Positions 35,097-64,000 of a stretch of 64,000 nt of DNA are shown in pieces (position 1 is the stretch's first letter; each line of letters starts with the position of its first letter). The DNA lies in the NCBI GenBank assembly GCA_033439295.1, contig JAVTLE010000013.1, positions 1,116,001 to 1,180,000 on the forward strand. Direction: 5' to 3'. A model generated the notes under the pieces. The model had not been told where the DNA came from. It made no database searches and saw nothing but the letters and a program-made list of their open reading frames with translations. Position numbers and translations under genes: made by a program. The stretch comes from Deuterostichococcus epilithicus. Its lineage: Eukaryota > Chlorophyta > Trebouxiophyceae > Prasiolales > Stichococcaceae.

Positions 35097-35794
35097 ATGA
35101 CAGCCGGATCGGACACAGTCCGCGGCCAGCGCGGGCTGCCGCAGAAACACCCTGCTGCTAGGCGCAGCGACATGCTGGGCGCCAGTGCCGGCACAAGCGC
35201 CGGCGACGGCGGTGGCGCCGGCGGCAACAGCGGCGGCAGCGCGCGCCACCCGCTAGAACCGCAGACGACTGCTGCAACAGCAGATTATATGGCGCCCGCG
35301 AACCCAACGGAGGAGGCAGTACAGGCCGCCTGGGAGGCTGTGCTGTGCAAGTCCCCCATCAGCGTCACATCAAATTACTTTCAGGTACGATACAACGTCA
35401 GTGTCAGCTGCAGTGCATGTCAGGAATTCGGCGAGTCTTCACCCACGCAGTACCTTTGCACATACTACGTGTGTGCATGTCGGCACGCCGACCGCATCAA
35501 AACTGCCCTGCAAATCGCGCCGCGGACTGAATTGATCTCGCTCTGCCGCGGCCGCAGCTTGGCGGCGACTCCCTCGGGGCAGCCGCCATTGCCTCGCACA
35601 TGCGGTCTGCACTGCGCCAGAGGGTCGAGGTGGGGTGGCTATACGACACCGAGACCATCAGGGGCTTTGCCGCCCGCGTGTTTGGCGAGGCTGCCGACGA
35701 TGCGCAGCCTGACGACATGTCCCAGCAGTTGCGGGACGCGGCGGCCGGCAGCGACCAGTCAGGGGAGGAGCTCCACCCCCTGTCATTCCAGCAG
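35097..35794 (+). other. NRPS leader and lone carrier domain T0
   Basis: Exons 35097-35384 and 35558-35794, both phase 0. A Gly/Ala/Ser-rich leader of about 60 residues is followed by [20 protein letters not shown] and then [19 protein letters not shown], the phosphopantetheine attachment site with its serine. It ends LHPLSFQQ, the same linker form that ends later T domains. No adenylation domain precedes it in the window. Confidence 0.9.
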
Positions 35795-38700
35795 GTGCAC
35801 GTTTGACAGCGCTTGACCAACGGGCATTTGAACACGGGCTTTTGCTGGCACGCCTGGCCGTCACACGCACCTACATCAGGCTTGCTTCCTGCAGCACACC
35901 TGCTGCCGCGGTCACAGGCTTTGCTCTGCAACTGCACGTGCAGCTCCCCAAGCTGCTGGTGCATGCTTCGTTGCTGACCTGCTTTCCCATCTGCGCAGGA
36001 GCGATTCTTTGCGCTGGGGCGGCGCGACCAGCTTTCGCACGCCCACAGCACGGGGTTCAACGCCTTCATCTCCGGTGACCTGGACCTTGCCGCCCTCCAG
36101 ACGGCTGCCGTCATGGTCCTGGAGCGGCAACAGGTGAAATTTTGCGTCTACCACAGACGGCACTTTCGACACCGTGAGGGCGACCATGCATACCACGCCA
36201 GCACACGGCAGCCTTCGGATGCACCTGTCACGATGCGAAGCTGCGCTGTCGAACGCTCAACATGACACCTGGGCTTGGCATACAGGAGCAGCCCGACCAT
36301 GACTCTGACATGCTGCCCCTGCATGGCGCAGGTCCTGCGGAGCCGTGTGGTGGCGGCAGACAGCCCCGACTCGGCAGCGGCGCAGGCTGTCGTGCCCATG
36401 CAGCAGGCGGCGGCGCTTTTTGAGTGCACCACCCTGGCGGCGGCATGCACCAACTGCGTCGCCTCCCAGGATGATGGCAGCTGTGTCGTCGTGCCAGGCG
36501 CGTGCCCAGCAGCTTGCAATGTGGATGCATGCCCCACTATGACGGTCGCCTCATTCACGGCCTGAGAGGGTGTTTCCGGTTAGCGACGCAATGCTCCAGT
36601 GATGTGTTCAACCTGCAATAGAAGACGTGTGTAGTGCAGGCATGCTGAGATGGGCAGTATGATGCGCCGCAGGGTCAGCGCTGGAGCAGGGGCTGCTGGC
36701 CTCAGCAACCCAGCCTTTCGACCTCATCCACGGGCCGCTCGTCCGCTTCAAGGTGGTTACATTCTGCTGCACATGGTGCCAGCAACGTGTTGGCACTGAT
36801 GACTGATGCTTGCACGCACCCTGCTGCATTTTGTTTGCCGGAAGCTTCTGCCATAATGATACATGCTCATGGATGCTGGAATCCTTTCTCGAAGGTGTGG
36901 AACTGGCCCGCGGACAAGCAGCATGTGCTTGCGGTCGGCGTACATCCCGCGGCCGCAGACGGCGTCAGTCTGGGCATCATGCGGCGCGAGCTGGCGGCGG
37001 CCTACGCCGCGGCGGCGGCCGGCGTCACGCCGGCCTGGGCGCCGCCGCCGCTGCAGTATCACCACTTCGCCACCTGGCAGCGGCAGCGCTTCGCCGGCGG
37101 CGACCAGTGGCGGCGGCAGCTGGACTACTGGCGGGCGGCGCTCGCCGGCGCGCCGCGGCAGCTGGAGCTGCAGACGATGTCGCTGCTGCCCGAGGGGGCA
37201 AGGTCTGGCGCCGCCGCTGCGGTGCCGCTGCGCCTCGGCGCCGAGGCGGCGGCCGGCCTGCAGGCGCTGGCCGCCACAGAGCGCGCCACCTTGTTCGCCA
37301 CCCTGCTAGCGGCGCTGCAGGTGCACCTCTACTTGCTGTCTCGTTCCAGATCTGGGGTTTGTCTCCCGGAGAGCTGATAAGATGCGGGACAAACGTCCGG
37401 TGTGCTGGTGGAGGCACCATGCCCCATGACAACTTGCAATCCTGCGACACCAGTCAGCTGCTGCCCGACACAGGAGCCAGCTGGGTCCAAATCCACTTCT
37501 GCTTCAGGCTGTTTCCTGCCTGACGTGCTTGCTGTCATGCCTCCGAACACGACCGCCGCCGCTGCGCAGGCGCTGCTCAGCCGGTACACGTCTCAGGAAG
37601 ACATCGTGGTCGGCGCGCCGCACGCAGCCCGCGGCCTCGCGAGCCTGGACGCCGTGCAGGGCTGCTTCGCAAACACGCTCCCTCTGCGCGTGTCTGTGGC
37701 GGGCGGCTCCACCCTCCGCCTGCTGCTGGCCCGCGCCAAGGACGCCGTCGCTGGGGCGATGTGCAATGCCGACATGCCCCTTGACGCTATAACGGAGGCG
37801 CTGGGCGCCGGCCAGTCCGGCGGCCTGTTCAAGGCAAGCCTTCTTTCGGGAGCAGACTCGGAATTCCAGGAACCAAGTCATCCCAGGAAGCCGCTGCTTG
37901 CAATATCTTGCGTTGGATGCAGCCGGCTGCTGTGCGGCTGGCGGCGGCGTCAACATCTCCTCGAGCATGCCATAGCACGTGTTGCAGCCTGGCGCCTGGC
38001 TGCGGAGCTTCGGCTACAGAAAGTCAGAAACCGCTGCAACCTCCTTGCGCGCAGGTCATGCTGGTGCTGGAGCAGCACGACGTGCAGGCGGAGCTGCAGC
38101 TGCCGGGCGCCCAGGTGCAGGAGCTGCAGGGCGGCTCGCCGCTGACCGCTGACACCGAACTGGTCTTCGCCATCCGCCTCACCAGGTGCGTGGCTTGTTG
38201 TAGCATTTGCACTAGTGTCTGAACTCGAGGTGTCAAGGTGTCAGATGCAGAAAGCATCCCTTTTCGAAAGCCCTAGCGGTGCAAGCGCACTTCGAGCTGC
38301 TCAGCGGCCAGTTGCGCACTCAGCTGCGGCACCTGTGTCGGCATCACCTGCGCACCGGTTGCAGCTGTTCGCATGATGGGATCCCAGTGTGCCTCCCTTC
38401 ATCACAGCAGCTGATTTCGTGCAGGAGTGGCTCTCTTGAGGGGCGCCTCACGTATGCGACAGACCTGTTCGATGCCGCCACCGCCGCCCGCATGGCAGAT
38501 CACTTTGCGGTGCTGGCAGCGGCCGCGGCGACACAGCCGGACGCCCACATCGGCGTTCTGCCGCTGATGGGTCCGGCAGAGGAGCGCACGGTGCTGTACG
38601 CCTTCAACGACACCGCGGCGCCGCTGCCGACGCTGTGCGTCCACCAGTACTTCGAGCAGCAGGCGGCGCGGGCGCCGGTCGCCAAGTGCCTCATTGCCGG

Positions 38701-41700
38701 CTCCAGCGGCGTAAGCCTCACCTACGACGAGGTCAACACGCGCGCGAACCAGATGGCGCACCACCTCATCTCGGCGGGCGTCGCCGCTGACGTGCCGGTG
38801 GCGGTCATGCTGGACAAGAGCTTCGAGGTCTACATCGCCCTCGTCGCGGTGCTCAAGGCGGGCGGCTGCTATGTGCCCATTGACCACACGGCGCCAGCAG
38901 CCCGCGCCGCCAGCATCCTGCAGCAGGCCGGCTGCCACATCCTCATCGCGGCGCCAGCGGTGGCGGACATCCGCGGGCAGCTGCCGGCGGGCGTCGACAT
39001 CCTGGTGGCCGACCGGGGCTGGCAGCAGTTCAGCGGCCGCCCAACCGCCAATGTGGAGCGCCGCTGCCACACCAGCGGGCTTGTGTACATGGCCTTCACA
39101 AGTGGATCTACTGGCGAACCAAAGGGCATAGCCGTGCAGCACTCGGGTGTTCTGCTCCCCCTGATAGTCTAACTTTGCATGTTGAGCGGTCTCGGCAGGA
39201 AGCACTGCCAATTCTGCTTGCCGTAGCTTGCACATCTTGTCCGAGGCTTAGCCTAGCTGTGTGCGCATTCCTGCGTCCCTGGATTGCTTGCCAAGGAATT
39301 GCTTTGCCCATGGCGAGTATCCTAGCTGATGGTGTGTTGCTAACTGACTGTCATCCCGGCTCGACTGCAGGCGTGTCCAACGTCATGGCACACGAACTGG
39401 ACCTGCTGCGCTCCGCCGGCGTGCGGCCTGGCGACCGCGTGCTGCAGTGGATGGCGCTCAACTTCGACCTGAGCGTCATGGACTTCTGGGTGCCGCTGGC
39501 GGCAGGCTGTGCGGTGGTGACCGCGCCGGCAGAGGAGATGAAGGACGTGGAGCGGGTGGCGGCGCTGGTGCAGCAGCACCAGGTCGCTGCAGCGACCTTC
39601 GTGCCATCCATGTGCCAGGTGTGTCCCAGGCCTGATTCCAAGGCCGATCATATGGGAACAGAGAACAGGGTCTGGTCGATGAGCAGATGGGTGAAGAAGA
39701 GCTTGGCAATCCACAAGAGGCTGCGGCGGCGTGCTTGCACAGCATCGGCGCATCGTTCACATGCAGATTGTACCCAGCTGCACCTCAGCCTGTGCACACC
39801 GGATGCGCATGCTGTGATCAGCACTAACCGTTCACGCCACAGGCTCTGCTGGCGGCCTGCGGCGGGCGCGGCCTGCTGACCAGCCTGCTGCATGTAAACC
39901 TCAGCGGCGAGACAGTGCAGCCGGCGGCGGTGGCGGCAATGGTGGGCGCCGCGCCAAAGGCTATCATGTACGACAAGTACGGCCCAACGGAGGCCAGCAT
40001 CGTCACAACCTCCTTCCCCTGCACAGACTGTGGTGGCTCCACGTCTGTGCCAATCGGAGGGTGAGGTTGCCTCTCGACATGATTCGTGGGGCAAGCTTGC
40101 TGCAAGCTTAACATGATCCCAGGGTTAGCCAATGCCTTTCTGACCCTGCCAGTGTATGTTTCGCTCTACGGCACAGCACATGACGGCGAGGGTGCTGTAA
40201 TGCGCAGGCCCATCCGCAACATGCGGCACTATGTGCTTGACCCTGCCACGCTGGCACCGCTGCCGGTGGGTGTGCCCGGCGAGCTCTTCCTCAGCGGCCC
40301 TGGCCTGGCGCGCGGCTACATTGGCCGCCCAGACCTGACGGAGAAGGCCTTCCTGCTGAACCCCTTCCGGCTGCCGGAGGACAGCGACGCCTATGCCCGC
40401 ATGTACCGCACCGGCGACAACGTCATGTGGCTGCCCAGCGGCATCAACAGGTGCTTCAGCGTTGAGCCGGTGCAGTCGCAGGCTGCACAATAGTTGGACC
40501 CCCCTAATGGAACAGGAACGAGCAAGACTTCGACGTGTAGCACTGGCTAGCACTGATGTGTAGCAGGAGTGGTGTTCCTGGCCTGACTTTACTGCCTCGG
40601 AGTACTGGGGTCAGCTGACTCAGTTTTTAGTCACTGTACCTCAGCTGACTCAGATCTTCAGTCAGTCGCCTCGCATCTTTCTCGGTCATCTCGAATCCAT
40701 CAAAGATTGCTGTGTCTGCGTCTCAGCCCCTCCACGGGGGATGAGCAATCCCGAGCCTGCCTGTAGCTGCTGTGCACCCTGCGCCGCAGGTTCTTTGGTC
40801 GCAAGGACGGCCAGGTGCAGCTGCGCGGCTTCCGCGTGGAGCTGGGCGAAGTGGAAGCGGTGCTGTTGGGCGCGCTTGGCGTGCGCACCGCCGCAGTTGT
40901 GCTGCAGGATGCGGACACCCCTGCTGCAGCGCTCATCGCCTACGTGGCGCCGGCGGAGGCGCAGCAGCAGGGGGCGGTGCTGGCGGCCTGCCGCGCGCGG
41001 CTGCCGGTGTACATGGTCCCGACTGGCGTCTTGCGTTTGGCAGAGCTGCCAAGACTCCAGAACGGAAAGGTGCTTCCTTGAACTTGCCGGCTTGTGCTGA
41101 CAGTAGGCAGCGAAATCTGCGATGCCCTCCCTCATGCCCATTCGACAGCCCCTCGCTCCTGCCCGTTTGACAGCTGCATGATGCTGCTGGTCTTGGACAC
41201 GTGAACAGCACATGGAGACATGCATCTCAGGATCCGTTGCACACCAGGATTCTTTGCCAATTCCTTCTGAGGGCTCCGTGCTGCGCTCCGCACAGGTGGA
41301 CCGGCGCAGCCTGCCGCGCTTCGAGTACGGCTCCACGGCACCATTCGCTGAGCCAACCAATGCGACGGAGGCCGCCATCCTGGCCGCCTGGCGCGCCGTG
41401 CTGGACATCCCCGCTGATCGCCGTGTCAGCATCGACGATGACTACTTTGCGGTGTGCGACTTTTGCACTGCATCCGCTCCTGGCGGCGTGCCTGACCCGA
41501 AACGTGACCAGAATCTGCGGCATGGTGCACTGAGAGAGATTCCTGTTGACCTTCCTGTTCTCCGATGCAGTTCATTCGGCAGTCTGATGCAACAGGGCTG
41601 CCAGCCCAAGGGAATTCATGCAAACCTGGTGATAAAATCCATTCAGCACCAGTGCCACCTGTTCCGCAGATGGGCGGCAACTCCCTGCAAGCCGGCGGCG

Positions 41701-44700
41701 TCACAGCGCACATGCGTGGAGAGCTGGGCATCTGGCAGAGCATCCCGGGCGCCTGGCTGTTCGCCCACTCGACAGTGCGGCGCCTGGCGGCCAAGGTCGA
41801 CAGCGTGCTCGCCAGCGGCCAGTCCGCGCGGCAGGCGCACGCAGCGCTGGCGCCTCTGCCGCGTGAGGGCGATGAGGCGGACTTGCGCTTCAGCCTCTCC
41901 TTCCAGCAGGTTTCGTACTTCAAGTTCATCCTCTCGTTCCTGTTGCACATGCCTTCGGTAACAGCGCCTGACCTGCCGCACTTGTCCGTGGCGCATTTGT
42001 GGGAGCAGCAGCTCCGCAGAAGTGGCAGGATGTTCCAAGCTTTCCGTCCAGCAACTCACAAATCCAACATGCGACTCAAAGGAAGCCGCAGTCCATTCAA
42101 CATCGCCTGCTGGTCTACTGCGCAGGAGCAATTCCTCCAGCTGTGGCAGCAGGAGCCCAGCAGCGCGGCATACAACACCGCCTGGGGTCTGCACCTGGCG
42201 GGCCCGCTGGCGCTGCCGGCAGTGCAGGCCGCACTACTCATGCTGGTTCAGCGGCACGAGGTGAGGACACGGAAAGACTTAGTACTCGATGACAGAACCT
42301 CCTGCGGGCTGCCTGCACTGCATGGGCCATGGGCTGCAGGCGCTGCAGGATGCACTGCGATGTTCCTGCAGATGGAGGGGCGTCAAAGCGTAAGCACAAC
42401 GTAAGCTTGGGTAGCTGGCGCCGCAGACATTCTGGGAGTTGGCGCCATCAATCGCCTGCAGGATGGGCGAGTGGCCGCTGACAGTTCCTAGCTCTGAGAA
42501 AATGCCTCCTACCAAACCGCAGGTGCTGCGATCCCAGTTTGTGGAGGGTAATAATGGCGTGCCAAGCCTCCGCCTGCTGGCGGGCGGCGAGGCCGCTGTC
42601 CCACTGGAGGTCGGCCACCTGCGCGGCGGCTTCAGCGCCAACCCAGCAGACGGCGGCGTCAGCGTCGCACTGGGTTCGCCGCTGTTCCAGCAGTGGAGCA
42701 GCTTCGCGGGCGCGCCGTTCGACCTTTTCAGCGACCGCCTGCTGCGCGCCAAGGTAAAATTTTCTTATCCTCTAAATCGTTCTGAATCTCAACACGGCGC
42801 TGTAGCGCAGTGCGTCGCTGGTCGTCTCGTCGGGTTCATCTGCTGGGGATAGTGCACTTCTTTCGCCCCCATGGGGGGGCACATATGCTTTCTGCTGCTG
42901 ACGGCCTGCTCCACTCGTACATGCAATGGCAGCAACCAACCCGATTTGTGGGCCCGATCTCAGGTCTGGGAGGTCTCGCCGGACGAGCACGTGCTGCTGG
43001 TCGTGCTGCACCACGCCATGACAGACGGCTGGTCCAACCGTCTCCTCCAGCGGGAGCTGGCAGCTGCCTATAGGGCCACGGCCGGCGGCGGCGGCGGCGC
43101 CCCTGCCTGGGCGCCGCTGCCGCTCGCCTACAGCGACTATGCCGCCTGGCAGCGGGCGCAATTGGCGGGGCCAGCGCTGGCCGCGGAGCTGGCCTGGTGG
43201 AAGCACACCCTTGCGGACGCGCCGCCGCTGCTGGACCTGCCCACAGACCGGCCGCGGCCGGACGTGTTCTCATTTGCTGGCGGCCGGGTGCCAATCCGCA
43301 TTGAGGCGGACACCTGCGGGCGCTTGCGGGCGCTGGCGGCCGAGCACCGCACGACGCCCTTCGTCGTGTTGCTGACGGCCCTGCAGGCGCGCACGCTTCT
43401 CTTCTCACCTGCATTGCGAAGATGATGTGCCACACAATGTGGCAGCCTCACGAGCCAGCGGGCTTCGCAAGTGAGCAGCAGCACCGCAGGCTCTTCAACC
43501 CACCTTCTGAAGTAGCCTATGCACAGACTAATCCCCCTCTGCACACCTCAATGCAGGTGGTGCTGCAGCGCTACAGCATGCAGGACGATGTTGTGATCGG
43601 GACGCCCTATGTGAACCGCGACCAGGCGGAGGTGCTGGGCCTTGTCGGCTGCTTCGTCAACACCCTGGCACTGCGCCTGACGTCTTCGCACGGTGCCACC
43701 TTTGCCGGCCTGGTCGACGCTGCCGCCAAGGCGGCCTCGGCGGCGTTTGTGCACGGCGCCACGCCCTTTGCAAAGGTCGTGGAAGCCCTGGGCGTCGCAC
43801 GCAGCGCCAGCTACACGCCCGTCGTCCAGGTGATGGATCGCCTCCGGCTATTTCGAATGCATTGCTAAGCTGTCCTGAGACGGAGATGAGGGTCGATGCA
43901 GACCAGCTGTTGGTCGCCGCACTGAGCAGGCACCGGCTGCAGCAGCACGCACGCACCCTCTCATGCCCCCTCCCTTGCATGTCACACCAATGGACCCTCC
44001 GAAGCTGAAGTTCTGCTTCCATCAAACCCTCCCGCAACCACAGCCTGGCTTATGATTGCGACTGTCCAGATGCCTACAAGTCATTTGTGGTCTGCAGGCG
44101 ATGATGACGCTGGACTCGGAGACAGAGGCGCACCAGCACGGCGACTGGGGCGGCCTGGGCGTGCAGCCTGCCGTCAACGGCGACACCGACGTTGCTCTTA
44201 CCGACCTCGTACTCATGCTGCGCACCAGGTGACTGTTCCCGCCGCTGCTCTGGCATCAATGCCTTTGCACCGGAGGGTCCAAATAAGCAGACTCTCTGGC
44301 ACGCACATGGGCGCCCTGCCAGTCAGCGTAAAACCTCACGATTTGGCACACATTCAGGATCAGGTCAGAACCTCTCTCTAGCTGCTGCGGCGAGCCGACC
44401 AGCTGTGTGGAGCTGGACTGACGACCTCCTCCTGTATTCACGCCGCAGCGGCGATGCCATCTGCGGCGAGCTGGTGTACGCGGCAGACCTGTTCGATGCT
44501 GCGACCGCCGCCCGCATGGTGGCCCACCTGGGCACGCTGCTGGCGGCGGCGGTGGCGGCGCCCAGCACACCGGCGTCAGCGCTGCCGCTGGCAGATGCCG
44601 GCGAGCAGCAGCTGACGCTGCGCACCTTCAACGACACCGCGGCGCCGTACCCCGCCGACAAATGCGTGCACCAGCTGTTCGAGGCGCGGGCGTCTGCCCA

Positions 44701-50700: not shown

Positions 50701-51472
50701 CGGCCTTCATCCTGCAGCAGGCGGAGGCGAAGCTGCTGCTGACGGACTCCAGCCTGGCGGTGCTGCCGGAGCTGCCGGCCATTGACACGCTGCACCTGGA
50801 CAAGGGCTGGGCGCAGTTTGCCGCGCAGCCTCGCAGCAGCCCGGCGGCCGGCTGCAGCCTGGCGGACGCCTGCTACATCCTGTTCACCAGCGGCAGCACG
50901 GGCTTGCCAAAGGGCGTGAGGGTGCCGCACACCGGCGTCGTCAACGCCATGCTCAGCGGCAAGGTCAGAATTTTTCGGCCCATTCTCCCGCCTTGACGAA
51001 GAATTCGATCAAACCCGGCAAGAAGACATTCACCCCAGCATTGCCTGACAGCACAATCACCGTCAGCAGCATAGGAACAGGCATGACCCCATAGCTTGCT
51101 GAGTGCTCATTTTATATGCCTTTGTGCTGCAGGGCCTGGTGGAGGCGGCTGGCCTTGGCAGCGGCGGGCCGGTATTCCTGCAGATGATGTCGGTGTTTGC
51201 CGACCTGTCGGTGCTGGACCTGTGGCTGCCGCTAGCCATGGGCTGTGCCACCGTCATTGCGCCGGCGGAGCAGATGAAGGATGTCGACGCTGTGCGCGGC
51301 CTCATCGCCCGCCACTGCGTGGCGTGCATGACCACCGTGCCGTCCATGTTCCAGGTGAGCTGCAGTGCTGTTCATGGCCTGCGGTTGATGGCATTAGGTG
51401 CTGTCAGGCGCTGAAACGATGCCATCATTGGGACGTGGGTCAGACTCTGTTGTAACTGCTGCCGCTTCAGCG

Positions 51473-51546
<74 letters not shown>

Positions 51547-54500
51547 CATTGCAGTGTCCAGCAGCTGTACTAGCTCCTCAAGTTTCGGCACACCCCCTCC
51601 TGCAGGCCCTGATGGACGCGTGCTCCGGGCCTGGCGACCTGGCCAGCCTGCGCTACGTCAACCTGGGCGGCGAGGTCATCTACCCCACCACCCTGACGCA
51701 GGCCTGTAGGCTGGCGCCTGCTGCGCACCTGGCGAACGTGTACGGCCCCACAGAGGCCAGCGTGTTTAACTCCTCCTGGCCGTGCAACGAGCACGATGGC
51801 GTCAGCTACGTGCCGCTGGGCAGGTGCTGAGACAATTTCTTCGATCGTGTGAAACTTCATCATACCATTCTGAGCTCTCAGCAGACCATGCTCCCAAACA
51901 CACTGTCATTATTGCTATCCTCCATAGTGCTTCACTTTGCAAAGGCTAACCCTTCTTCTTGCTTGTGCAGGCCCATCAACAACACGCGGTTCTACATCCT
52001 GGACCCACGCACCATGCAGCCCTGCCCGGTGGGCGTGCCCGGCGAGTGCTACATCAGCGGCGCCGGCCTGGCACGAGGCTATGTTGGCCGTGACGACCTG
52101 ACAGCCGAGCGCTTCGTGCCCAATCCCTTCAAGCTGCCCGGCGACAGCGACCACTACAGCCGCATGTACAAGACTGGTGAGGCCTTAAACAGTGTGCCTT
52201 CCCTGCGCGAACTTGTTGGTCAAGTTTGGCGTTCTGAGACAACGCTCACCTCCAGATAGTACGAGATTTAAGACCTGCACCAGAAAGGTTTCGATGCGTC
52301 ATCAGCGTTGTCTGATTGCAGCATCTCTCTACCACAGGCGATGTGCTGGCATGGCTGCCAGACGGCACGCAGCACTTCATGGGGCGTGTCGACACGCAGG
52401 TCAAGCTGCGCGGCTTCCGCATCGAGCTCGCAGGTCTGCCCTCTGTCCAGCTTGCAGTGTGTAGAGAAACCGACAATATGTGCTTGCACTGCTGCGCTAT
52501 ACACAGGAGCCAATGGCAGCTGCCCTCAGCGGCAGCTCTGTCCCGGCCTCACGTCCTTTGCGATTGCTGCAGAGGTGGAGGCTGTCATCGCCAGCGTGGA
52601 GGGGGTGCACGACGTTGCAGCCGTGCTGCAGGATGCTGGCAGCCCGGCCGCTGCTATCGTCGCCTTTGTCACCCCTGCTGCCATTGCTGAGGCCAACGGC
52701 GTCAAGGCCGCCTGCAGCAGCCGTCTGCCACACTACATGGTTCCCTCGGCAATCTGCGGCATTGAGATCATGCCGCGTCTAAGCAACGGCAAGGTGATGC
52801 TGCAAATTTTTCAGATGCCTATTGAGGCCAGGTGTTACCAGGTCGGGGTTGAGGTCTTGGTGTTCAGGCCGCTGACCTGCTGGCGCAGACAGCTGATGCT
52901 CACGTCACGATGTCCCCAAACTGCAGATCGATCGCCTTAGCCTCCCTCGGCACGACTTCTCGTCGGCTGAGGAATCAGCGGCTCCCTCTGGCCCCATCGA
53001 GGAGGCTGTGCACGCGGCGTGGCGGTCCGTGCTGCAGCATGTCAAGGAGGACATCTCAGCGCGCGCCAACTTCTTCGAGGTATCCGGCATGCCTATGTAC
53101 AGCTGCTGATTGGTCTGGTCCACACTTGCTGTTCCCCGCTCAATCAGCACTCCATCCGCTGCAGGCCTTGCTTGTTGTCTGCTGCCCCTTGATCTGCTCA
53201 TGCTTCCTTGTCCTCTCCAGCAGTATGCTGATCTGCTGACACCAGCGCTGTCTCGACACCGCAGCTGGGCGGCAACTCGCTGCAAGCTGGCGCCGTGTGC
53301 TCGCGCGTGCGTGCCGCCCTGGGCCTGGAGCGCCCCATCCCCGTTACCTGGATCATGCAGTGCCAGACGATCCAGGCATTGGCGGCGTGTCTGGCTGACA
53401 CAGCCCCAACCGCGGACCTGCCCGCAATGGAAGCGCTGACAGCCACCGTCAGCCGGCAGGACGTCAGCAGCCGGCCCGACACACCTCTGTCCTTTGAGCA
53501 GGTAACCTGCGCTTGTTAGGTGTTTGCTTGGAAGCCGTTACCCCAGTTTTTGATGGCAGGACTCGTGGAACATGGTTCTCCTATCCACGTCATGTCGAAC
53601 TTCTGGCTCCAGGTTTCATTGCTCCTCTTTGCCCGCGCTTTTAAGGCTGCGCGGCAATGGAGGCTGAAACGACTGATTCGTGATGGCGCAGGAGCAATTC
53701 TTCCAGCTGTGGCAGCAGGCGCCTGAATCCAGTGCATATAATTCCGGGTTCTCCGCCTTCCTGCACGGCATCCTGGACCACGCGGCTCTGCATGCCGCGG
53801 TGCAGATGGTTCTGGAACGACAGGAGGTGCGAGTTGTGGAAATATCATCAAATCTGAGGATATTACAGCTCAAGCACAAAGCGACTCCAGCATTCTGCGT
53901 CAATCAAGCGTGTAGATGTTCCAGTCCTGAGTAGTGATGCAATAACTTTATCTTGGAGGCAGCCACAATGTCTTTATATTGGTTGCAGCAGATCCAAGAC
54001 ATTTCTCGCAATTCAATCGTTGCTCGTGTCGCAGGGTCTGCGGGTGCGCTTCGTCAGAGCCGACGCCATGGCGGCTGAGCCCCTGCAGCGCACTCGGCCG
54101 CTGCGCGACTTTGAGGCCGCGCTGCACGCTGTGCGGCTGGAATCCCACTACGCTGGCGATATCCGCGCCTCGCAGCAGGGCGCAGAAATTGTCTCAGGTG
54201 CTGTGCTCCCACCCCTTCAGTCTTCAGCCTGTGCAACCATGACCGAACCTGAGCCCAAAGCGACGTCTTGCTGCCACCTTGCGCAAGTCTTCAGACTGGC
54301 AACTGCCTTACAAGCATTCCTCCTGATTGACGCTGCAAGAAGTAAGGCGCTGAGACCTCAGCCTCACCACGTCCGCCTTGCCTTGCAGGCTCGGCGCTGC
54401 AGCAGCAGGCGCTGGACTTTACACGGCAGCCCTTCGACCTGCTGTCCGACACCCTCGTCCGCATGCAGGTGAGCGCTCGTACCTGTTCAGCACCTGCCCT

Positions 54501-57500
54501 TTCATCTCCAGCAGGATGCACAGAGAGAAGGGAGTCAGCCTGCCCACTATGAGGTTTGCTTCTTTGAATGTTTGCCCCTTCGGTACAAAGGTTTTGATTC
54601 TAATTACGCTCATGAGCTCAACGAAAGAAGCGTGTGCGTACAGGTCATGACGGTGTCCCCCAAGCAGCATGTGCTGCTGTGCAACGCCCACCACTCCATC
54701 TTCGACGGCTGGTCGGTGGCGCTGGTGCAGCGGGAGCTGGCGACCGCGTACGCTGCTGCCCTCGCCGGCAGCGCGNCCGCCTGGGCGCCGCTGCCGGTGC
54801 AGCTGGTCGACTACGCCGCCTGGCAGCGGCGGACCCTGGCAGGTGACGCCCTGCAGCGGCAGCTGGACTGGTGGAAGGCGGCGCTGGCGGGCGCACCGCC
54901 GCTGCTGGAGCTGCCCACCGACAGGCGGCGGCCCAAGGTGCTGGGCGACGCCGGCGCCTCGGCGCAGCTGCATGTGCCGCCGGCTGTGGGGGAGCGGCTG
55001 CGGGCGCTGGCCGCAGCGGAGCACACCACTCTCTTTGCCGTCATGCTGGCCGCCGTCAAGGTGCGTATTGCTTGGCTTGTAGTGTGCATGAGCTGCCTTA
55101 TGGATGTCGCAAGGATGCAGGGACTCTAGCAAGTCCGATACAGCGTTCATCAGAGCACCATGGTGACAGGAAACATGTCGCAACCCCTGCCTGAGGCAAA
55201 TTCTGCCAGCCCTGCTGTGACATCGGCTGATTCGATGCCCACAGGTGCTGCTGGCAAGGTACAGCGGCCAGGACGACCTCGTGGTCGGCACGCCCTACGC
55301 CAACAGGGCGCAGGAAGAGATGCAGCACCTGGCGGGCTGCCTGGTCAACACTGTAGCGCTGCGCACCGACGTGGGTGGGGACCCCACCTTCCAGCAGCTG
55401 CTGCAGCGCGTCAGCGACACGACCATGCAGGCGTTCGCCCATTCCGAGGCGCCCTTCGCCAAGGTGGTGGAGACGCTGAAGCTGGCGCGGTCAGCGAGCT
55501 ACACGCCGGTATTCCAGGTGTGCAATCCTCACAAGCTGCCGGTCCTGTTCAAAAATCGAATGTGCAGGCTCGATGTCAAGGGATTGCTGTGAACAGGCTT
55601 GAACATCAGCACTTGCACTGGGGCATGCTCGCAACCACCAGTCGTGCAGCAGAGACATCTGCCGGATCGAGCACTACCGTTTCTACAACACATGTCATGC
55701 TGCAGGTGCTGCTCTTCCTGGAGGATGAGTATGGTGCGGCCGACGGCCCGCCGGCCGGCGAGCCATCGTGGGAGCGGCTCAGCCTGGGTCGCGGCGGCAT
55801 CACCACCCCCACCGACCTCGACTTCCGGCTGAGCACCAGCAGGTGTGGTCTTCACTGCTTCGCCCTCGTGAGTCCAAAACTACCTTTCGAACATAATGCG
55901 AACCCTTCCCTGGAGCCCTGACTGGAGTCCATTGCAACTTTGCATATCGTGTGACTTGGCGCAGCCTGGTGGCTGCTGCTCACATGCATGCTGCAACGTT
56001 ACCGACTAGGCTCTCGTTGCCAATGCGCCAAGCGTTGTTTCCACAAGAGGCTCTGACTTTGCACAGGGACACGGGCATCGCCGGCCAGCTGGTGTTCTCC
56101 ACCGACCTGTTCGACACAGCCACCATGCAGCGGATGGCGCAGCACCTCAGCAACCTGCTAGCGGCTGTGACGACGCAGCCGGCGGCCCGCCTCAGCAGCC
56201 TCAGCATGATGGGCCCCGAGGAGGAGCACACCGTACTGCACGCCTTCAACGACACCGCCGGCCCGCCGCCCACGCTGTGCGTCCACCAGTTCTTTGAGCA
56301 GCAGGCCGCCGGCACGCCGGCAGCCGACTGCCTGGTCGACGGCGCCAGCGGCGGCAGCATGACCTATGCAGAGGTCAACGCTCGCGCCAACCAGCTGGCC
56401 CGGCACCTCATCGCCGCCGGCGTGGCGGCGGAGGTCCCGGTGGCGATCATGATGGACAAGAGCTTCGAGGTGTACATCGCCCTGGTTGCGGTGCTGAAGG
56501 CGGGCGGCTGCTATGTGCCCATCGACCACACGGCACCGGCGCAGCGCGTGTGCAGCATCCTGCAGCAGGCCGGCACCCGCCTGCTGATAGCGCAGCCAGC
56601 TGTGCAGCTGCCGAACCGCGAGCAGCTGCCGTCTGGGATTGACATCCTGATGGCGGACGAGCAGTGGCAGCGGTTCAGCAGCCAGCCGGACGGCAGCCTG
56701 GAGCCGCGCAGCCGCCCCGCCAACCTGTACACCATTATGTTCACCTCCGGCTCCACCGGCACGCCCAAAGTGAGTGCTGTGTCTGCGGATCTCCCTCTGA
56801 ACAACTGCCCATGCAGCATCAACGTTCGAGTGGCCATCGTGGATCAACACATCCAGCATGCTTTGGGCACGACGGTGTCCATCTCGTGTGATGAGACCTC
56901 CTGGCCTGTCTTGTCACCGTGCTGTTGCCTGTACCTGCGCAGGGCATCCCCGTCGAGCACGCAGGCAAGCACTTGCATCGCCTTCTCTTCAGCCAAGCCT
57001 TGTGGTCACTCGCACATCCTCAAGTTGCAGCTGCTGGTCAACTCTCAAGCTGCGGCATGTGTCCGACAAGTTATAACTCTCTGATGCATCATGGATGGTG
57101 GTTGTTGTATCCAAAGCCTCTGCCACGAATGCTGTGCTGAGTCCGCAGGCGTCTCCAATGTCATCTCGTACGAGACCAGCGTGTTGCAGTCAGCCGGCGT
57201 GCAGCGCGGCGATCGGGTGCTGCAGTGGATGGCAGTCAACTTCGACCTGTCGGTGCTGGACTTCTGGTGCCCGCTGGCCATGGGCTGCGCCGTGGTGGTT
57301 GCGCCGGCGGAGGAGATGAAGAATGTGGAGCGGGTGGCGGCGCTGGTGCAGCGGCACCAGATCGCCTCCGTCAGCATTGTGCCATCCATGTGCCAGGTGC
57401 GGTCTGGGACAATACAGCAGGTGCTGCATTCAGTCATGACAACGTTTGCCCGTTGATCCCCGTTGATCCCCAGAGCTTGTCAGCTTTGGCATGTGCAGCT

Positions 57501-60500
57501 CTTGCCCACCCAGAGGCTGGGCTCAGCCAGATGCGCTAGTGCCTGATGCAGGCGCTGCTGGAGGTGTGCCGTGACATTGGCCTGATGTCCAGCCTGCGGC
57601 ATGTCAACTATGGTGGTGAGGCGGTGCGGCCTGCAGCGGTGGCCGCGATGCGGGTCGCGGCGCCAAACGCTGAGCTGCACGATGCGTAAGCCTCTTCAGC
57701 AGCTTCTGCTCCTGCTGGTTTGTCATTTGACATGGCAAGCCGTCGACATGCTTCCACCTATTCTTCGGCACAGCTTCCTGCCAGGATGTATAGAAGTTTG
57801 ATTTGATCAAGGCTGTGGCAGCGCCCTTTACGCTGACATCTTTGCTTTTGGCAATGCAGGTATGGTCCCACCGAGGCCAGCGTCATAACCACATCCTTCC
57901 TGTGCAACGACTACGGTGATGCCGTGTCGGTGCCCATCGGCAGGTGAAAATCTACTTGCTACTGGGATGTTGTTCTAGTGCAAAAAAAGGGCAGCTGCTG
58001 AAATCCCTGTTATGACAGCTTGCTGCTCATGTCAATATAGCATGAAAGCTCTGCAAAGCACTGCTGAGCAGCACTGCGGCTGTCGATTGGTGGGCTTGTC
58101 ACCTCCCTGCAGGCCGTTCACCAACATGCGCCACTATGTGCTGGACGCCATCACCCTTGCACCTGTGCCCATCGGCGTCCCTGGCGAGCTCTTCCTAAGC
58201 GGCCCCGGCGTCGCGCGTGGCTACTTGGGGCGGCCGGATCTGACGGCAGCAGCATTCCTGCCCAACCCCTTCCGGCTGCCCAGCGACAGCGATGCCTATG
58301 CCCGCATGTACCGCACCGGCGACAACGTCATGTGGCTGCCCAGCGGCATCAACAGGTGCTCGGCCTGCAAGCTGCCGCGGGACGATGTTCTGCTGTCACT
58401 TGCCAAATTGGGTTGCAGAATTGTATACAACTGCACCCGTCGAACTGCAGCCATGTATAATTGCAGATCTTCCTCGAGTTTGTCCGTTGCCTGGAGCTTT
58501 TGAAGTTCCACTGAGATAGCAGCCAGCAGGTGTTTATGGCTGAGCTTCTGCTGGGTTTAAGTCGAACTCTTCGTGATAGTCTCGGGATGAACAAACCCGA
58601 GCGCACCTGCTCAGCCGCGGTGCCTGCTGCACTGCAGGTTCTTCGGCCGCAAGGACGGTCAGGTGCAGCTCCGCGGTTTCCGCGTGGAGCTGGGCGAGAT
58701 CGAGGCGGCGATGTCGTCGGCGCCGGGCGTGCAGAGCGCCGCGGTGGTGCTGCAGGATGCCGACACCCCCAGCGCGGCGCTCATCGCCTACGTGTCCCCT
58801 GAGGACGCTGACCAGGAGGACGTGCTGGAGGCCTGCCGCGCCAAACTGCCGCGCTACATGGTGCCAGCTGCGCTATTGAAAATGGAGGCTCTGCCGCGTC
58901 TTGGCAACGGAAAAGTGAGTGACACAGAAAAAGGTGCAGGGTGCTGTGTGGGTGCAGTGGGACTTCAATGTGATCTACCATGCGCAAAGTCGACCAGGAA
59001 TGAACAAAAACTTGGCTTTATGAGTGTCATTGGCAATGCTTCAGACAGCTGTGCGGTTTACTGTGGATTCACGATGCGACAGGTCGACCGAAAGAGTCTG
59101 CCGCGCCACGAGTTCAGCTCCACAGCCGCCTTTGTCGAGGCGGGCACTCCGGTCGAGAAGATGGTCCAGGCCGCCTGGCGCGCGGTGCTGGGCTTGCCAA
59201 AGGAGGAGCCCCTCTCAATCGAGACCAATTGGTTCGAGGTAAAGACGCAATATACTGCCATGAAGCAAGCTTAGACATCGCCTTCACATTGTCCTTGCAC
59301 GGGTGACAGCATTGGCAGTTTACGTCTGTTGAGGCGCTCTGCGAATTGTTAGAGGGTTACACTGTCCTGCCATGCTGTGTTTTTGCTGGCAATCGCCTTG
59401 GAACCGACCATGCAGGACATCTCGTGAAGCTGCTAGTTATTTGCAGGCGGGCGGGAACTCGCTGCAGACGGGCGCCGTCTGCTCCAGGGTGCGTGCCGGG
59501 CTGGCCGTGGATGCGGCCATCCCCGCCGCTTGGATGTTCACGCACCAGACCATCCGCTCGCTGGCGGACAAGATCTCGCGAGACGTGCTGGCCAGCGGCG
59601 CACGCCGCGCCGTGCCGCTGCTGCCGGCCGTCAGCGGCAAGCTGCAGCGGGCGGCCGACGCACTGGATGCCCAGGCAGAGCTGTCCTTCCAGCAGGTGAA
59701 GGGGCAGTATTTATCAGCAATCATATTTGTCATCATAAATATCGACCAGCAAGAAAAAGCGGCTGGTCATGTGTGTCAGGTCTCTTGCCTCGACTGCGTG
59801 CTCATAGCTGCAGGGCATGCGGCGCTGCCAGGCAGGTGTTGGCTGCGCAACCTGACAGGGAGAGCAGCGTTGCGCCGCCCTTCTTGAAGAAGCGATCACC
59901 AATGCAGTTGTGGTCGTCCTTTCGCAGGAGCAATTCTTGCAGCTTTGGCAGCAGGACCCCAGCAGCGCAGCATACAACACGCCCTGGGGCGTGTGCCTGC
60001 GCGGCAATCTGGACATTGGCGCCCTGAGGGCCGCCCTGCGCCTGCTGGCGGAGCGGCACCTGGTGAGCTGGCCACTATGCTGCTTCCCACTGTACCTTTG
60101 GTCGGGCCTCGGCCAGTGGACTATGCGGACTTGACAGATCCTGTACTGCACTTCGGGTCTCCCTCTACTGATGCGCCTAGCCCATGAGCACCACCTTCGA
60201 ACCCGGTGTTCTGGTGTCCAGTGACTCGCAGCTCAGTGCAGGTGCAGCTCCAGTCTCGTGAAACAGCACACAATCGGTGTCTGTACAGGTGCTGCGCACT
60301 GCATTCAAGGCCAACGCAGCGGATGAGAGCCGGACTCGGCAGGACATCTTAGGGGCCGCAGCTGTCAGCCTGCAGCTTGGCGAGGTCGCCGCAAATGGCT
60401 CGCCAGCGCTGCTACAAAACACCGCCGGCGGCATCACCGTTGCGGAAGGCTCGAGCCTGCGCGCCCAGTGGCGCGAGTTCGCGACTGCGCCATTCGACCT

Positions 60501-63500
60501 GTTCAATGGCATGCTCATCCGCAGCAAGGTCTGCTCACGATCCTGAGTTCCCAAGGAATGCAGTGCTTCACTGCTGCAGCCTGAGCAGCCGTGCAAACGA
60601 GCGGCGGCAAAGGCCTTGTCGTTGTACTGTTTCATTCCGGAACCCGCAAGCAAAACTGGCCAGTGCCAAGATTGACAAGCTTCTGACTGCGGTTCCAATT
60701 TTTGGACAGGTGTGGCAGTTGTCAGCGCAGGAGCACGTGCTGCTCATCGTGCAGCACCATTCCATCACCGACGGCATGTCGCTTGGCATCCTCAGCCATG
60801 ACCTGGCGGCGGCATACAGCGCGACGCTGCAGGCGGCGCAGCCGCAGTGGCCGCCGCTCAGCGTGGCGTATGTCGACTACGCCGCCTGGCAGCGAGCCGA
60901 GATGGGCAGTGCCACCCTCGCTGCCGAGCTGGCCTGGTGGCGGCAGAACCTCCAGGGCGCACCAGCGCTACTGGAGCTGCCTGCGGACCGGCCGCGGCCG
61001 GAGTCCATGTCGTGGGCGGGCGCCGAGCTGACGTTTGGGTTGCCGGCAGCTGTGGCTCGCAGCCTGCAGGCGCTGGCGACCGCGCAGCAGACTAGCCTCT
61101 TCATCGTGGTGCTGGCAGCTGTCCAGGTGCGTATTGCAAGCCTAGGCCTTTTTGTGACGAGCCAGGAAGCAGGTGGTCTGGGGCGTGTTCCAGCACAGTT
61201 CAGACGCGCTGCCTGGAGGACTGGGTGACGCATATCAGCTGCAGAAGATCTTGCTCTGCTCGGGCCCGGTAAGCCCTAAAGTGTCATGGGGACGAAAGTT
61301 TGCTGATGTGAGAGCTCCCCTGCAGGTGCTGTTGCACAAGTACAGCGGGCAGGAGGACATTGTCGTGGGCACGCCCTACGCCAACCGCGACGCTGCGGAG
61401 GTGAACGACCTGTTGGGCCCATTCGTCAACATGTTGGCGCTGCGGCTGGACCTGGCCGGCGACCCCACCTTCGTCGAGGCGCTGCGCCGCGCTAAGGCGA
61501 CTGCCACGCAGGCGTTTGTGCACGGCGCCGCGCCCTTCGCCAGAGTCGTTGACGCACTTGGCGCCATGCGCAGCGCGGCTTTCACCCCCGTGTTCCAGGT
61601 GGGGTCTCGTCCCTGCGCCGCCTGCAAGTCACGTCCGATGAGCCGACATGCATCGAGATGTGCAGCCCTCCAGTCACTGTGCAGCATGGCCGTGCCTTCC
61701 ACCATTACACTTCTGCGCACGGCACGATCAACCTGAAAACATATACTCTCCTCCGGCTTCAGATTCCATTAGTCATTCAGTCAACCGTATCTCCTGCGCA
61801 ATCGCAGGTGATATTGGTGCTGGACAACCCTGACCACATCAGCGACGACCAGCCGTCAGCCTGGGAGGGGCTGCGCGTCTGCAATGTAGACGCGGACCGC
61901 GGCAATGTGGTGCCCACCGACCTGGTGGTCTCTCTCAATACCAGGTGCGCACGTCGAGAAATGCTTGTGCACGGAAGTTAAGCAGCTCACGACGTCCAGA
62001 GCACACCAGCTGTCACACATCCTTCGCTGCTGCCAGACGGTCAAACCAAACCGCCTGAATGACAGGGTTGCCTGCCGCGGCGTCCTAAACAGCAACCGTG
62101 TGATTCGCTCTGCAACTGCAGGCACTGAGACTGCTGTCGTCCGATGTTTCAGGGAGCAGGGCATGGAGGGCGTGCTCAGCTACTCCACCGACCTGTTCGA
62201 CACAGCCACCATGCAGCGGATGGCGCAGCACCTCAGCAACCTGCTAGCGGCTGTGACGACGCAGTCGGCGGCCCGCCTCAGCAGCCTCAGCATGATGGGC
62301 CCCGAGGAGGAGCACACCGTACTGCACGCCTTCAACGACACCGCCGGCCCGCCGCCCACGCTGTGCGTCCACCAGTTCTTTGAGCAGCAGGCCGCCGGTA
62401 CGCCGGCAGCCGACTGCCTGGTCGACGGCGCCAGCGGCGGCAGCATGACCTATGCAGAGGTCAACGCTCGCGCCAACCAGCTGGCCCGGCACCTCATCGC
62501 CGCCGGCGTGGCGGCGGAGGTCCCGGTGGCGATCATGATGGACAAGAGCTTCGAGGTGTACATCGCCCTGGTTGCGGTGCTGAAGGCGGGCGGCTGCTAT
62601 GTGCCCATCGACCACACGGCACCGGCGCAGCGCGTGTGCAGCATCCTGCAGCAGGCCGGCACCCGCCTGCTGATTGCGCAGCCGGCTGTGCAGCTGCCGA
62701 ACCGCGAGCAGCTGCCGTTTGGGATTGACATCCTGATGGCGGACGAGCAGTGGCGGCGGTTCAGCAGCCAGCCGGACGGCAGCCTGGAGCCGCGCAGCCG
62801 CCCCGCCAACCTGTACACCATTATGTTCACCTCCGGCTCCACCGGCACGCCCAAAGTGAGTGCTGTGTCTGCGGATCTCCCTCTGAACAACTGCCCATGC
62901 AGCATCAACGTTCGAGTGGCCATCGTGGATCAGCACACCCAGCATGCTTTGGGCACGACGGTGTCCATCTCGTGTGATGAGACCTCCTGGCCTGTCTTGT
63001 CACCGTGCTGTTGCCTGTACCTGCGCAGGGCATCCCCGTCGAGCACGCAGGCAAGCACTTGCAGCGCCTTCTCTTCAGTCCAAGCCTTTGGTCACTGGCA
63101 CATCCTCACATCGCAGCTGCTGGTCGACTCTCAAGCTGCGGCATGTGTCCGACATGTTGCAGCTTTTGCAAACCGCAACACGAGTTGTGTTTGTATCAAG
63201 AGCCTCTGCCACGAATGCTGTGCTGAGTCCGCAGGCGTCTCCAATGTCATCTCGTACGAGACCAGCGTGTTGCAGTCAGCCGGCATGCAGCGCGGCGATC
63301 GGGTGCTGCAGTGGATGGCGGTCAACTTCGACCTGTCGGTGCTGGACTTCTGGTGCCCGCTGGCCATGGGCTGCGCCGTGGTGGTCGCGCCGGCGGAGGA
63401 GATGAAGAATGTGGAGCGGGTTGCGGCGCTGGTGCAGCAGCACCAGGTCGCCTCCGTCAGCATTGTGCCATCCATGTGCCAGGTGCGGTCTGGGACAATA

Positions 63501-64000
63501 CAGCAGGTGCTGCATTCATTCAGAAGGATATTCGTCTCTCAGTCATCAGAGCCTACCATCTTTTCGCATGTGTCTTGTCACCCGAGGCTGGGCTGAGGCA
63601 CATGCGCTTGTGCCTGATGCAGGCGCTGCTGGAGGTGTGCCGTGACATTGGCCTGATGACCAGCCTGCGACATGTCAACTATGGTGGTGAGGCGGTGCGG
63701 CCTGCAGCGGTGGCCGCGATGCGGGTCGCGGCGCCAAACGCTGAGCTGCACGATGCGTAAGTCTCTCCAGCAGCTTCTGCTGCTGTCGCTTTGCCATTCG
63801 ACCTGGCCAGCTGTCGACAAGCTTTCAAAATTTCTGCGACAGAGCCTCCTGCCAGGATGTATATGAAGTTGATTTGATCGAGGCTGTGACAGCGTGCTTC
63901 ATGCTGACATCTTTGCTTTTGGCAACGCAGGTACGGTCCCACCGAGGCCAGCGTCATCACCACATCCTTCCGCTGCAATGACTACGGCGATGCCGTGTCG
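35097..64000 (+). CDS. giant modular nonribosomal peptide synthetase (3' end outside window)
   Basis: A single split gene of more than 28.9 kb encodes T0-[C1-A1-T1]-[C2-A2-T2]-[C3-A3-T3]-[C4-A4-T4]-[C5-A5. Each module selects and activates an amino or related acid (A), holds it on a phosphopantetheine arm (T) and condenses it to the growing chain (C). The frame starts at Met 35097 in an unstructured Gly/Ser-rich leader. Adenylation motifs FTSGSTG, YGPTEAS, GELF.SG, ARGY.GR, RTGD and LRGFR.ELGE recur in the modules, and carrier motif GG(D/N)SL occurs five times. Many short GT-AG introns fall at matching sites from module to module. No epimerase, methyltransferase, thioesterase or reductase domain occurs in this part. 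Exons were read by homology between modules; not every junction was checked. Product unknown. Confidence 0.9.
35999..38560 (+). other. NRPS condensation domain C1, catalytic His lost
   Basis: Homology to the other C domains is clear: [82 protein letters not shown] and [12 protein letters not shown]. The active-site motif reads [12 protein letters not shown] (His codon 36943-36945, Pro codon 36946-36948) instead of HHxxxDG, so the catalytic second His is replaced by Pro. The later block normally ending 'TPVFQ' is also altered to QSGGLFK. Likely inactive for peptide-bond formation. Confidence 0.85.
38561..41911 (+). other. NRPS adenylation A1 and carrier T1
   Basis: A1 has [113 protein letters not shown] and LPRLQNGK (acyl-adenylate Lys). 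By-eye specificity residues: D-L-M-T-N-S-K-I-V plus K; I match this to no substrate. The T1 exon pair reads VSIDDDYFA, then [19 protein letters not shown], with the attachment Ser. Confidence 0.85.
42123..47730 (+). other. NRPS module 2 (C2-A2-T2)
   Basis: C2 carries an intact [10 protein letters not shown] (HH codons 43009-43014), [17 protein letters not shown] and [11 protein letters not shown]2 has [68 protein letters not shown] and [11 protein letters not shown]; here the last block is not split by the intron found in modules 1, 3 and 4. Specificity residues by eye: D-A-C-V-T-G-V-V-L plus K, the most divergent of the set. T2 has [18 protein letters not shown]. Confidence 0.88.
46930..46983 (+). 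repeat. intronic tandem duplication, 2 x 27 bp
   Basis: Two adjacent 27-bp units (46930-46956 and 46957-46983), beginning 'tggctcggcaggcttgcag', differ at one base. They lie in an A2 intron of the NRPS. Confidence 0.9.
47899..53502 (+). other. NRPS module 3 (C3-A3-T3)
   Basis: C3 begins [20 protein letters not shown] and has an intact [14 protein letters not shown] (HH codons 48862-48867). A3 has [77 protein letters not shown] and MPRLSNGK. Specificity residues by eye: D-L-L-T-N-G-V-V-F plus K. T3 is [19 protein letters not shown]. An intron between the A3 core and YGPTE exons carries a long CTG microsatellite. Confidence 0.88.
51474..51545 (+). repeat. (CTG)24 intronic microsatellite
   Basis: Twenty-four perfect CTG units in the NRPS intron between the exon ending PSMFQ (donor after 51354) and the exon starting ALMDACSG (acceptor near 51606). 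It ends about 60 bases upstream of the acceptor, so it overlaps the branch-point/polypyrimidine neighbourhood. Confidence 0.95.
56098..57960 (+). repeat. A4 copy of a duplicated adenylation segment
   Basis: From the exon beginning [13 protein letters not shown] through the YGPTEAS exon, this segment matches 62184-64000 almost base for base, including intron sequence (for example the introns after TGTPK). The offset between copies is about 6.08 kb, shifting by only some 15 bases across the segment. Confidence 0.9.
56943..56964 (+). other. 22-base microexon with GC donor (A4)
   Basis: After [10 protein letters not shown]| the next coding piece needed by homology, GIPVEHAG, is a 22-base block between an AG acceptor and GCAAGC. 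The following exon starts GCGTCTCC and completes a Gly codon to give VSNVISYE. In A1 the same residues (GIAVQHSG) are joined directly to the upstream exon. The A5 copy is at 63029-63050. Confidence 0.7.
59927..64000 (+). other. NRPS module 5 (C5-A5, truncated by window end)
   Basis: C5 begins [19 protein letters not shown] and has an intact [14 protein letters not shown] (HH codons 60755-60760), [17 protein letters not shown] and [12 protein letters not shown]5 repeats A4 nearly exactly, with the same residues at all nine readable specificity positions (D-L-L-S-N-G-A-V-I). The window ends just after the [13 protein letters not shown] block; the rest of A5, T5 and any terminal release domain lie downstream. 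Confidence 0.88.
62184..64000 (+). repeat. A5 copy of the duplicated adenylation segment
   Basis: Partner of 56098-57960. Coding and intronic sequence are both near-identical, while the flanking C4 and C5 domains are clearly diverged, so the homogenised tract is limited to the adenylation part and has a sharp left edge at the exon coding STDLFDTAT. Confidence 0.9.

Follow-up and report, generated by a model that had tools for sequence, protein, structure and literature searches.

A stretch of 64,000 nucleotides from the green alga Deuterostichococcus epilithicus (contig JAVTLE010000013.1, C11:1116001-1180000; hereafter the window, whose numbering is used wherever no contig is named) contains the first quarter of a predicted plus-strand gene for a giant non-ribosomal peptide synthetase (NRPS), which extends from 35172 to about 142752 (C11:1151172-1258752). 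Judging from the sequence, we consider it likely that this is one nuclear gene, that it encodes a linear NRPS of about 2.1 MDa with a lone carrier domain (T0), 17 modules of condensation (C), adenylation (A) and carrier (T) domains and a terminal domain, and that the line arose by amplification of a module followed by recopying of A domains and releases its product at a membrane by transfer to an amine. A preliminary description of positions 35097-64000 had proposed a giant multimodular and apparently spliced NRPS in a eukaryotic nuclear genome, which is borne out by the 17 modules, 249 predicted introns and nuclear neighbours. Its count of at least five C-A modules plus an extra carrier fits the window, where T0, modules M01-M04 and the C and most of the A domain of M05 (end of A5 at about 65145) are located, but the total is 17. 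Likewise, its start was about right (ATG at 35172), but the gene reaches far past its end. With 17 modules, the predicted enzyme would rank with the largest fungal and bacterial NRPSs.

Architecture of the predicted gene

A six-frame search of the whole genome (46.8 Mb in 21 contigs) with the condensation profile PF00668, in which 58 candidates were scored, returned 46 matches within the threshold of E <= 0.001, the best of them at E 1.4e-34. They are all confined to the plus strand of C11 between 1152.9 and 1245.9 kb. The gene finder was self-trained on 45 of these stretches; the remaining one bears a TGA, which falls inside a predicted intron, and was excluded from training. For modelling, a further 100 kb downstream of the window was taken in. 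Free to end and start genes at a penalty, the finder joined the whole stretch into one gene. The final model combines the unguided model with a single homology-guided pass, from which zero-length exons were deleted and in which one module 4 exon (57552-57685) was restored by hand after comparison with module 5. It comprises 250 exons and 249 introns (227 GT and 22 GC donors, median 186 bp) and encodes 20,056 aa or 2.14 MDa. At the 5' end, an in-frame stop is followed by the first ATG at 35172, and at the 3' end a stop closes the last exon at about 142752. Both ends were set by hand because the finder swallowed the neighbouring genes in a 164 kb run. A homology-guided model iterated on its own translations took introns into the coding sequence, reaching 27,257 aa at a median intron length of 70 bp; it was discarded.

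The predicted protein consists of T0, 17 C-A-T modules and a C-terminal membrane region; T0 and the modules together contribute 52 C, A and T domains. All 17 modules are full length (1,075-1,127 aa), and three of them have gaps, none longer than 15 alignment columns. The Pfam families Condensation, AMP-binding and PP-binding all match within the N-terminal 777 aa, and modules beyond this point were judged by mutual alignment rather than by a Pfam search of the whole protein. Single predicted exons bridge 16 of the 17 T-C junctions, holding the carrier serine together with the start of the next C domain, as well as 15 of the 17 C-A and 16 of the 17 A-T junctions, and one exon (134455-134686) runs from the end of T17 into the first membrane helix. 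Exons of this kind imply that the modules are fused in the DNA and are not mere neighbours, and thus lend exon-level support to the earlier proposal of one gene. The features of the gene inside the window, all on the plus strand, are as follows.

35172..64000, +, 5' portion of the giant NRPS gene, predicted exons 1-65 of 250 plus part of exon 66 (self-trained gene model, ends hand-set at in-frame ATG and stop)
35286..35690, +, T0, N-terminal carrier with GGDSL and Ser codon at 35570, no A domain in front (Pfam PP-binding E 2.6e-9)
35789..38477, +, C1, condensation domain with HPAAADG for HHxxxDG, catalytic His replaced (Pfam Condensation E 2.8e-56 and motif)
38522..41823, +, A1-T1 of module 1, pocket DLMTNSKIVK
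41904..47645, +, module 2, C2-A2-T2, HHAMTDG, pocket DACVTGVVLK
47723..53418, +, module 3, C3-A3-T3, HHAITDG, pocket DLLTNGVVFK (as in modules 8, 11 and 12)
53496..59600, +, module 4, C4-A4-T4, HHSIFDG, pocket DLLSNGAVIK
59690..64000, +, first part of module 5 (C5 and most of A5), HHSITDG, pocket DLLSNGAVIK

Two small irregularities were seen in the assembly and the model. Seven isolated N bases are present, four in the window (18490, 18493, 19763, 54776) and three downstream (72500, 72537, 100326), which may be unresolved or heterozygous sites; those at 54776, 72500, 72537 and 100326 fall in predicted NRPS exons. Before motif A8, modules 9 and 10 have an identical additional predicted stretch, RSDLFSFAVFGAV, which is either a common insertion or an intron left in by the model.

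The two ends of the line and the predicted product

The modules are followed by a C-terminal region of 1,243 aa. The NCBIfam model TIGR02353 (Pls/PosA terminal domain) matches the C-terminal 1,334 aa in three stretches (E 1.2e-50), and Pfam hexapeptide repeats are found in the first half (E 4.8e-10) and in the last part (E 0.0036). Hydrophobic stretches occur in three groups, and three beta-helix parts align at the level of sequence. The region may resemble the post-carrier C-terminal region of Pls (epsilon-poly-L-lysine synthetase) and PosA (delta-poly-L-ornithine synthetase), with its membrane helices and three left-handed beta-helix parts. For PosA, three pairs of membrane helices have been described (six helices in all), and modelling gave three left-handed beta-helices (PMC10522769). 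After removal of the algal linker, the region was aligned with eight bacterial homologues, one of which (L099) covers only 203 columns. Of the 73 columns that are near-invariant in the bacteria, the alga has the same residue in 40, including those of an LGA stretch and of a W-x-G-x-P in the last beta-helix part. The linker consists of 369 residues of Ser/Gly/Arg-rich low-complexity sequence with RRxSGL-like repeats (about 138.4-140.5 kb) and separates the second and third parts of the domain, where the bacterial homologue L096 is gapped.

Matches to TIGR02353 were obtained in 7 of 24 bacterial genomes (24 of the 63 NRPS loci) and in 7 of 274 genomes of one class, for which at most four candidates were scored per genome. 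Eleven distinct full-length bacterial matches lie in open frames of 972-1767 aa, which is single-module length when the frames alone are considered; the rest are fragments. A search of solved structures with the algal terminal domain gave two weak matches, both to NDUCA chains (E 0.005). The only other TIGR02353 match in the algal genome (L021, C14:1507952-1508122, 22.4 bits) was rejected, its open reading frames (ORFs) being read as a spliced serine acetyltransferase.

Located at the position of a thioesterase, the terminal domain would hold the line at the membrane and would free the peptide by transfer to an amine, as proposed for diamino acids in Pls/PosA. A role in release or transfer is plausible by analogy, because in the type-I fatty acid synthase (FAS) of Coccomyxa subellipsoidea an NRPS terminal domain of this kind is reported to replace the thioesterase (PMC3446292). 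Two observations speak against assigning it this function. The TIGR02353 score (172.6 bits) is under the curated equivalog cut-off of 423.1, and the domain is only 20-28% identical to the bacterial ones; hence, its catalysis is a guess. The domain might instead be a membrane anchor or scaffold only, with the peptide released by a separate thioesterase or by water. The low identity and the low-complexity linker would agree with such an arrangement, which we regard as possible though rather doubtful, because the 40 kept columns are above what would be expected for an anchor. Since the 17-module line ends in a terminus of Pls/PosA type, it becomes testable what this poorly understood membrane domain does, namely whether it passes a long peptide to an amine.

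At the opposite end of the line, the catalytic motif is altered. HHxxxDG is kept in C2-C17 (16 of 17 C domains) and the carrier serine in all 18 carriers, while C1 reads HPAAADG. No other end branch of the algal C tree is as long as that of C1 (1.25 changes per site, compared to 0.19-0.84). C1 is very probably dead, and we infer that T0 is a remnant. Because C1 is devoid of the catalytic His, a linear 17-residue peptide is the likeliest product. A1 would load residue 1, C2-C17 would form 16 peptide bonds and T17 would bear the 17-mer. Alternatively, T0 might be loaded in trans and C1 or another enzyme might join an acyl group to residue 1, resulting in a lipopeptide. Indeed, the GGDSL serine of T0 is intact, and T0 and C1 are fused in one predicted exon. 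However, this start is unlikely given the motif of C1 in comparison to the 16 others, its long branch, as for a domain under less constraint, and the absence of an acyl-loading domain ahead of T0 in the gene model. A simple scan of the predicted protein returned no epimerisation-type motif. Labelled by context, none of the bacterial C domains used was of the epimerisation or DCL type, and hence they gave no contrast for an LCL reading of the algal ones. One candidate phosphopantetheinyl transferase was found in the genome.

The adenylation pockets give an indication of the composition of the peptide. Pocket positions, in GrsA numbering, were located by motif, and the code of module 4 was completed from the restored exon. 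Asp235 and Lys517 are kept in all 17 A domains. Modules 4, 5 and 16 share the pocket DLLSNGAVIK, modules 3, 8, 11 and 12 share DLLTNGVVFK, and modules 6, 9, 10, 13 and 14 share DGMMAGCVMK; modules 2 and 15 have DACVTGVVLK and DALATGVVLK, respectively, and the codes of modules 1, 7 and 17 occur once each. Modules 6 and 9 agree in all ten pocket residues at an A-domain identity of 66%. Since the pockets contain no charged residue besides Asp235 and Lys517, apart from a Lys in module 1, they suggest nonpolar or small substrates. None of the codes had a trustworthy match to any known amino acid. The product is probably a mostly nonpolar, repetitive 17-mer and as such a new natural-product target.

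Proposed module amplification and recopying of adenylation domains

In a tree that also included 50 C domains from bacteria, no more than two of them per locus, all 17 C domains of the alga fall in a single clade (SH-aLRT 100). No bacterial domain is nested among them, and the trees contain no stable bacterial sister of the algal clade. The scan of bacteria was queried with 4 of the 17 A domains. The introns are arranged in largely the same manner from module to module. Of the 228 module introns, 182 are at a column and phase common to at least nine modules, while 200 runs of random placement produced no position common to five modules. The final intron positions were guided by homology between modules, which weighs against this count; the unguided model gives the same picture, with 156 of 199 module introns at positions common to at least five modules. 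Because intron positions are common to the modules, the array is best read as the amplification of one intron-bearing module. In the C tree, M08-M12, M09-M13 and M10-M14 are sister pairs, and therefore a block of three modules was probably duplicated (M08-M10 and M12-M14). The ancestral intron-bearing module would thus have been amplified in tandem, probably including this block. Furthermore, an intron inside C (column 168) coincides with a split in the C tree: the 11 modules on one side all have it and the others lack it.

The A domains have a different history from that of the C domains. In the group of modules 3, 8, 11 and 12, A domains are 90-98% identical, C domains 57-68% and T domains 48-95%; in modules 9, 10, 13 and 14, the values are 93-97%, 51-74% and 68-79%, and in modules 4 and 5 they are 97%, 45% and 47%. 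The A tree conflicts with the C tree, and each data set rejects clades of the other. The C data reject {M4,M5,M16} (p 6e-80) and {M9,M10,M13,M14} (p 1e-9), and the A data reject {M3,M4,M16} (p 2e-64) and {M5,M9,M13} (p 0.001). Three introns inside A are found only in modules 3, 8, 11 and 12. At the DNA level, ten blocks of 2.0-2.9 kb, introns included, are 86-96% identical. Of the 16 block ends checked, 13 are within predicted introns, at a distance of 2-13 bp from the splice site, either in the intron near the end of C or in an intron at the end of A or inside T. The edges reported by BLAST are partly set by exon conservation, and the ends are thus most safely described as lying at or beside the intron. 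Each copied unit spans the whole A domain plus the linker and the end of C ahead of it, and in one group it extends into the first part of T. Three such stretches begin in the window.

50368..52182, +, A stretch of module 3, 84% identical DNA to 80090-81843 (module 8)
56064..58924, +, A cassette of module 4, which together with its introns matches 62150-64947 (module 5) at 89% DNA identity; both ends in predicted introns, 3 and 10 bp from the splice site
62150..64000, +, A cassette of module 5, counterpart of 56064-58924, runs on to 64947

We suggest that, after the amplification, A domains were copied again from module to module, mostly with edges at introns close to the C-A and A-T borders, which would give repeated specificities. 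Exon identity exceeds intron identity in four of six pairs and is about equal in two, and the ratio of nonsynonymous to synonymous substitution rates (dN/dS) is 0.16-0.24 in all ten A-domain pairs. Some observations fit less well with recopying. The conflict of the C data with {M3,M8,M11,M12} is weak (p 0.046), three of the 16 cassette ends fall in exons, and T domains are not always left behind, as T8 and T12 are 95% identical. Taken as proposed, the locus records the growth of an assembly line inside a eukaryote, in which a module was amplified together with its introns and A cassettes were then recopied.

The same data bear on whether the locus is instead expressed as several shorter cooperating proteins, or whether its modules have been split up or have partly decayed. 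In favour of this, the gene finder tends to over-join, having merged flanking genes as well in the 164 kb run, and C1 is degenerate. As for the model itself, module 17 is its least certain part, with 23 predicted introns compared to 10-16 elsewhere and the T16-C17 junction spread over two exons. The model forbids in-frame stops and imposes GT/GC-AG borders, and open frames and splice borders are consequently no evidence. Nevertheless, we hold separate proteins or decay to be quite improbable, as 16 of 17 T-C borders are inside predicted exons, all modules are full length and the dN/dS values are low in every A pair. Separate genes, pseudogenes and a chimera had been named beforehand as outcomes that would speak against a single giant NRPS, and the fused exons, common intron positions and dN/dS values disfavour all three.

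Genome context and known systems

The NRPS contig is 3.08 Mb long and its G+C content is even across the window. Genes with syntaxin-6, Tim44, protein kinase (CDK-like by eye), ribosomal protein S3 and SNF2 domains flank the NRPS gene on both sides, so that its description as lying among ordinary housekeeping genes is apt. In line with a green-algal host, when a GMC-family gene of the genome was compared with solved structures, its six best matches were all entries for fatty acid photodecarboxylase from a green alga. A contaminant or chimera from a bacterium or fungus, the groups from which large NRPSs are best known, is very improbable; among the 63 bacterial loci, those that match the algal A and C profiles best are cyanobacterial and proteobacterial, but in this comparison, which covered bacterial collections, the length of the contig, its even G+C and its housekeeping genes, the intron positions shared by modules and the lack of nested bacterial C domains all argue against it.

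In surveys, algal NRPSs are rare and small (PMC4661987; PMC7073580). A 2015 survey reports NRPSs in 7 of 32 algae, with one C domain each in C. variabilis and Coccomyxa, and its largest example, from Bigelowiella, has 10 domains and 490 kDa (PMC4661987), compared to 52 C, A and T domains plus a terminal region and 2.14 MDa here. A 2020 survey lists, in part of a table, one NRPS cluster in C. variabilis and two in Parachlorella kessleri (PMC7073580), and clusters of NRPS or NRPS-like type are reported from Trebouxia genomes (PMC11523091; PMC10219277). Like the present gene, those of Trebouxia and Parachlorella are from green algae; they are described there in brief. In searches of open-access literature, we found neither a green-algal NRPS of such size nor a multimodular NRPS that ends in a Pls/PosA terminus, and no A exchange edged by introns. 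A report combining A domain, gene conversion and intron was likewise not found. With subscription literature and eukaryotic sequence databases out of scope, NRPS relatives in other algae may exist and be known already.

The Coccomyxa type-I FAS is, according to PMC3446292, also a green-algal megasynthase with the same kind of terminal domain, but has about 10 kb of coding sequence and no peptide modules. Unlike Pls and PosA, which are bacterial proteins of single-module length, the algal enzyme has 17 C-A-T modules before the terminal domain. Since the network of PMC10522769 used a length window of 1100-1800 residues, longer fusions fall outside it. The pockets differ as well. The four unusual Pls/PosA-type pockets quoted have Glu at the third position (PMC10522769), whereas none of the 17 algal A domains does (M, L or C in all 17).

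Fungal peptaibol synthetases are similar in being eukaryotic and in making linear peptides (peptaibols have about 5-21 residues). They have a single-protein layout, release their products as amino alcohols and, to our knowledge, carry no Pls/PosA-type terminus. In bacterial NRPSs, recombination also targets the A domain, where the C-A linker and the A-T border remain mostly native, with exceptions (PMC8097286). The bacterial exchange thus mostly concerns the A core only, whereas in the alga the C-A linker and the A-T border are inside or at the edge of the unit and edges are mostly at introns. The intron-edged A cassettes point to natural cut sites for engineering. A more speculative and distinctly unlikely extension is that the beta-helix domain joins the 17-mer to a membrane amine or to the next 17-mer, yielding a surface-bound or block-repeat polymer whose specificity is rewritten in nature by intron-edged A cassettes in a manner like exon shuffling, which would give a eukaryote its own way to new peptides.

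Two further observations concern other loci. Clusters of ketosynthase (PF00109) exon matches at C19:2755304-2841234 and C7:2826596-2890034 are probably two giant multimodular type-I polyketide synthase genes of the green-algal kind. In the window at about 21100-29400, plus-strand ORFs at 21135-21878 and 27078-27917 have common repeated proline-rich stretches and leucine-rich-repeat-like ORFs are present on the minus strand at about 24.0-26.6 kb; these are perhaps tandem F-box/leucine-rich-repeat genes.

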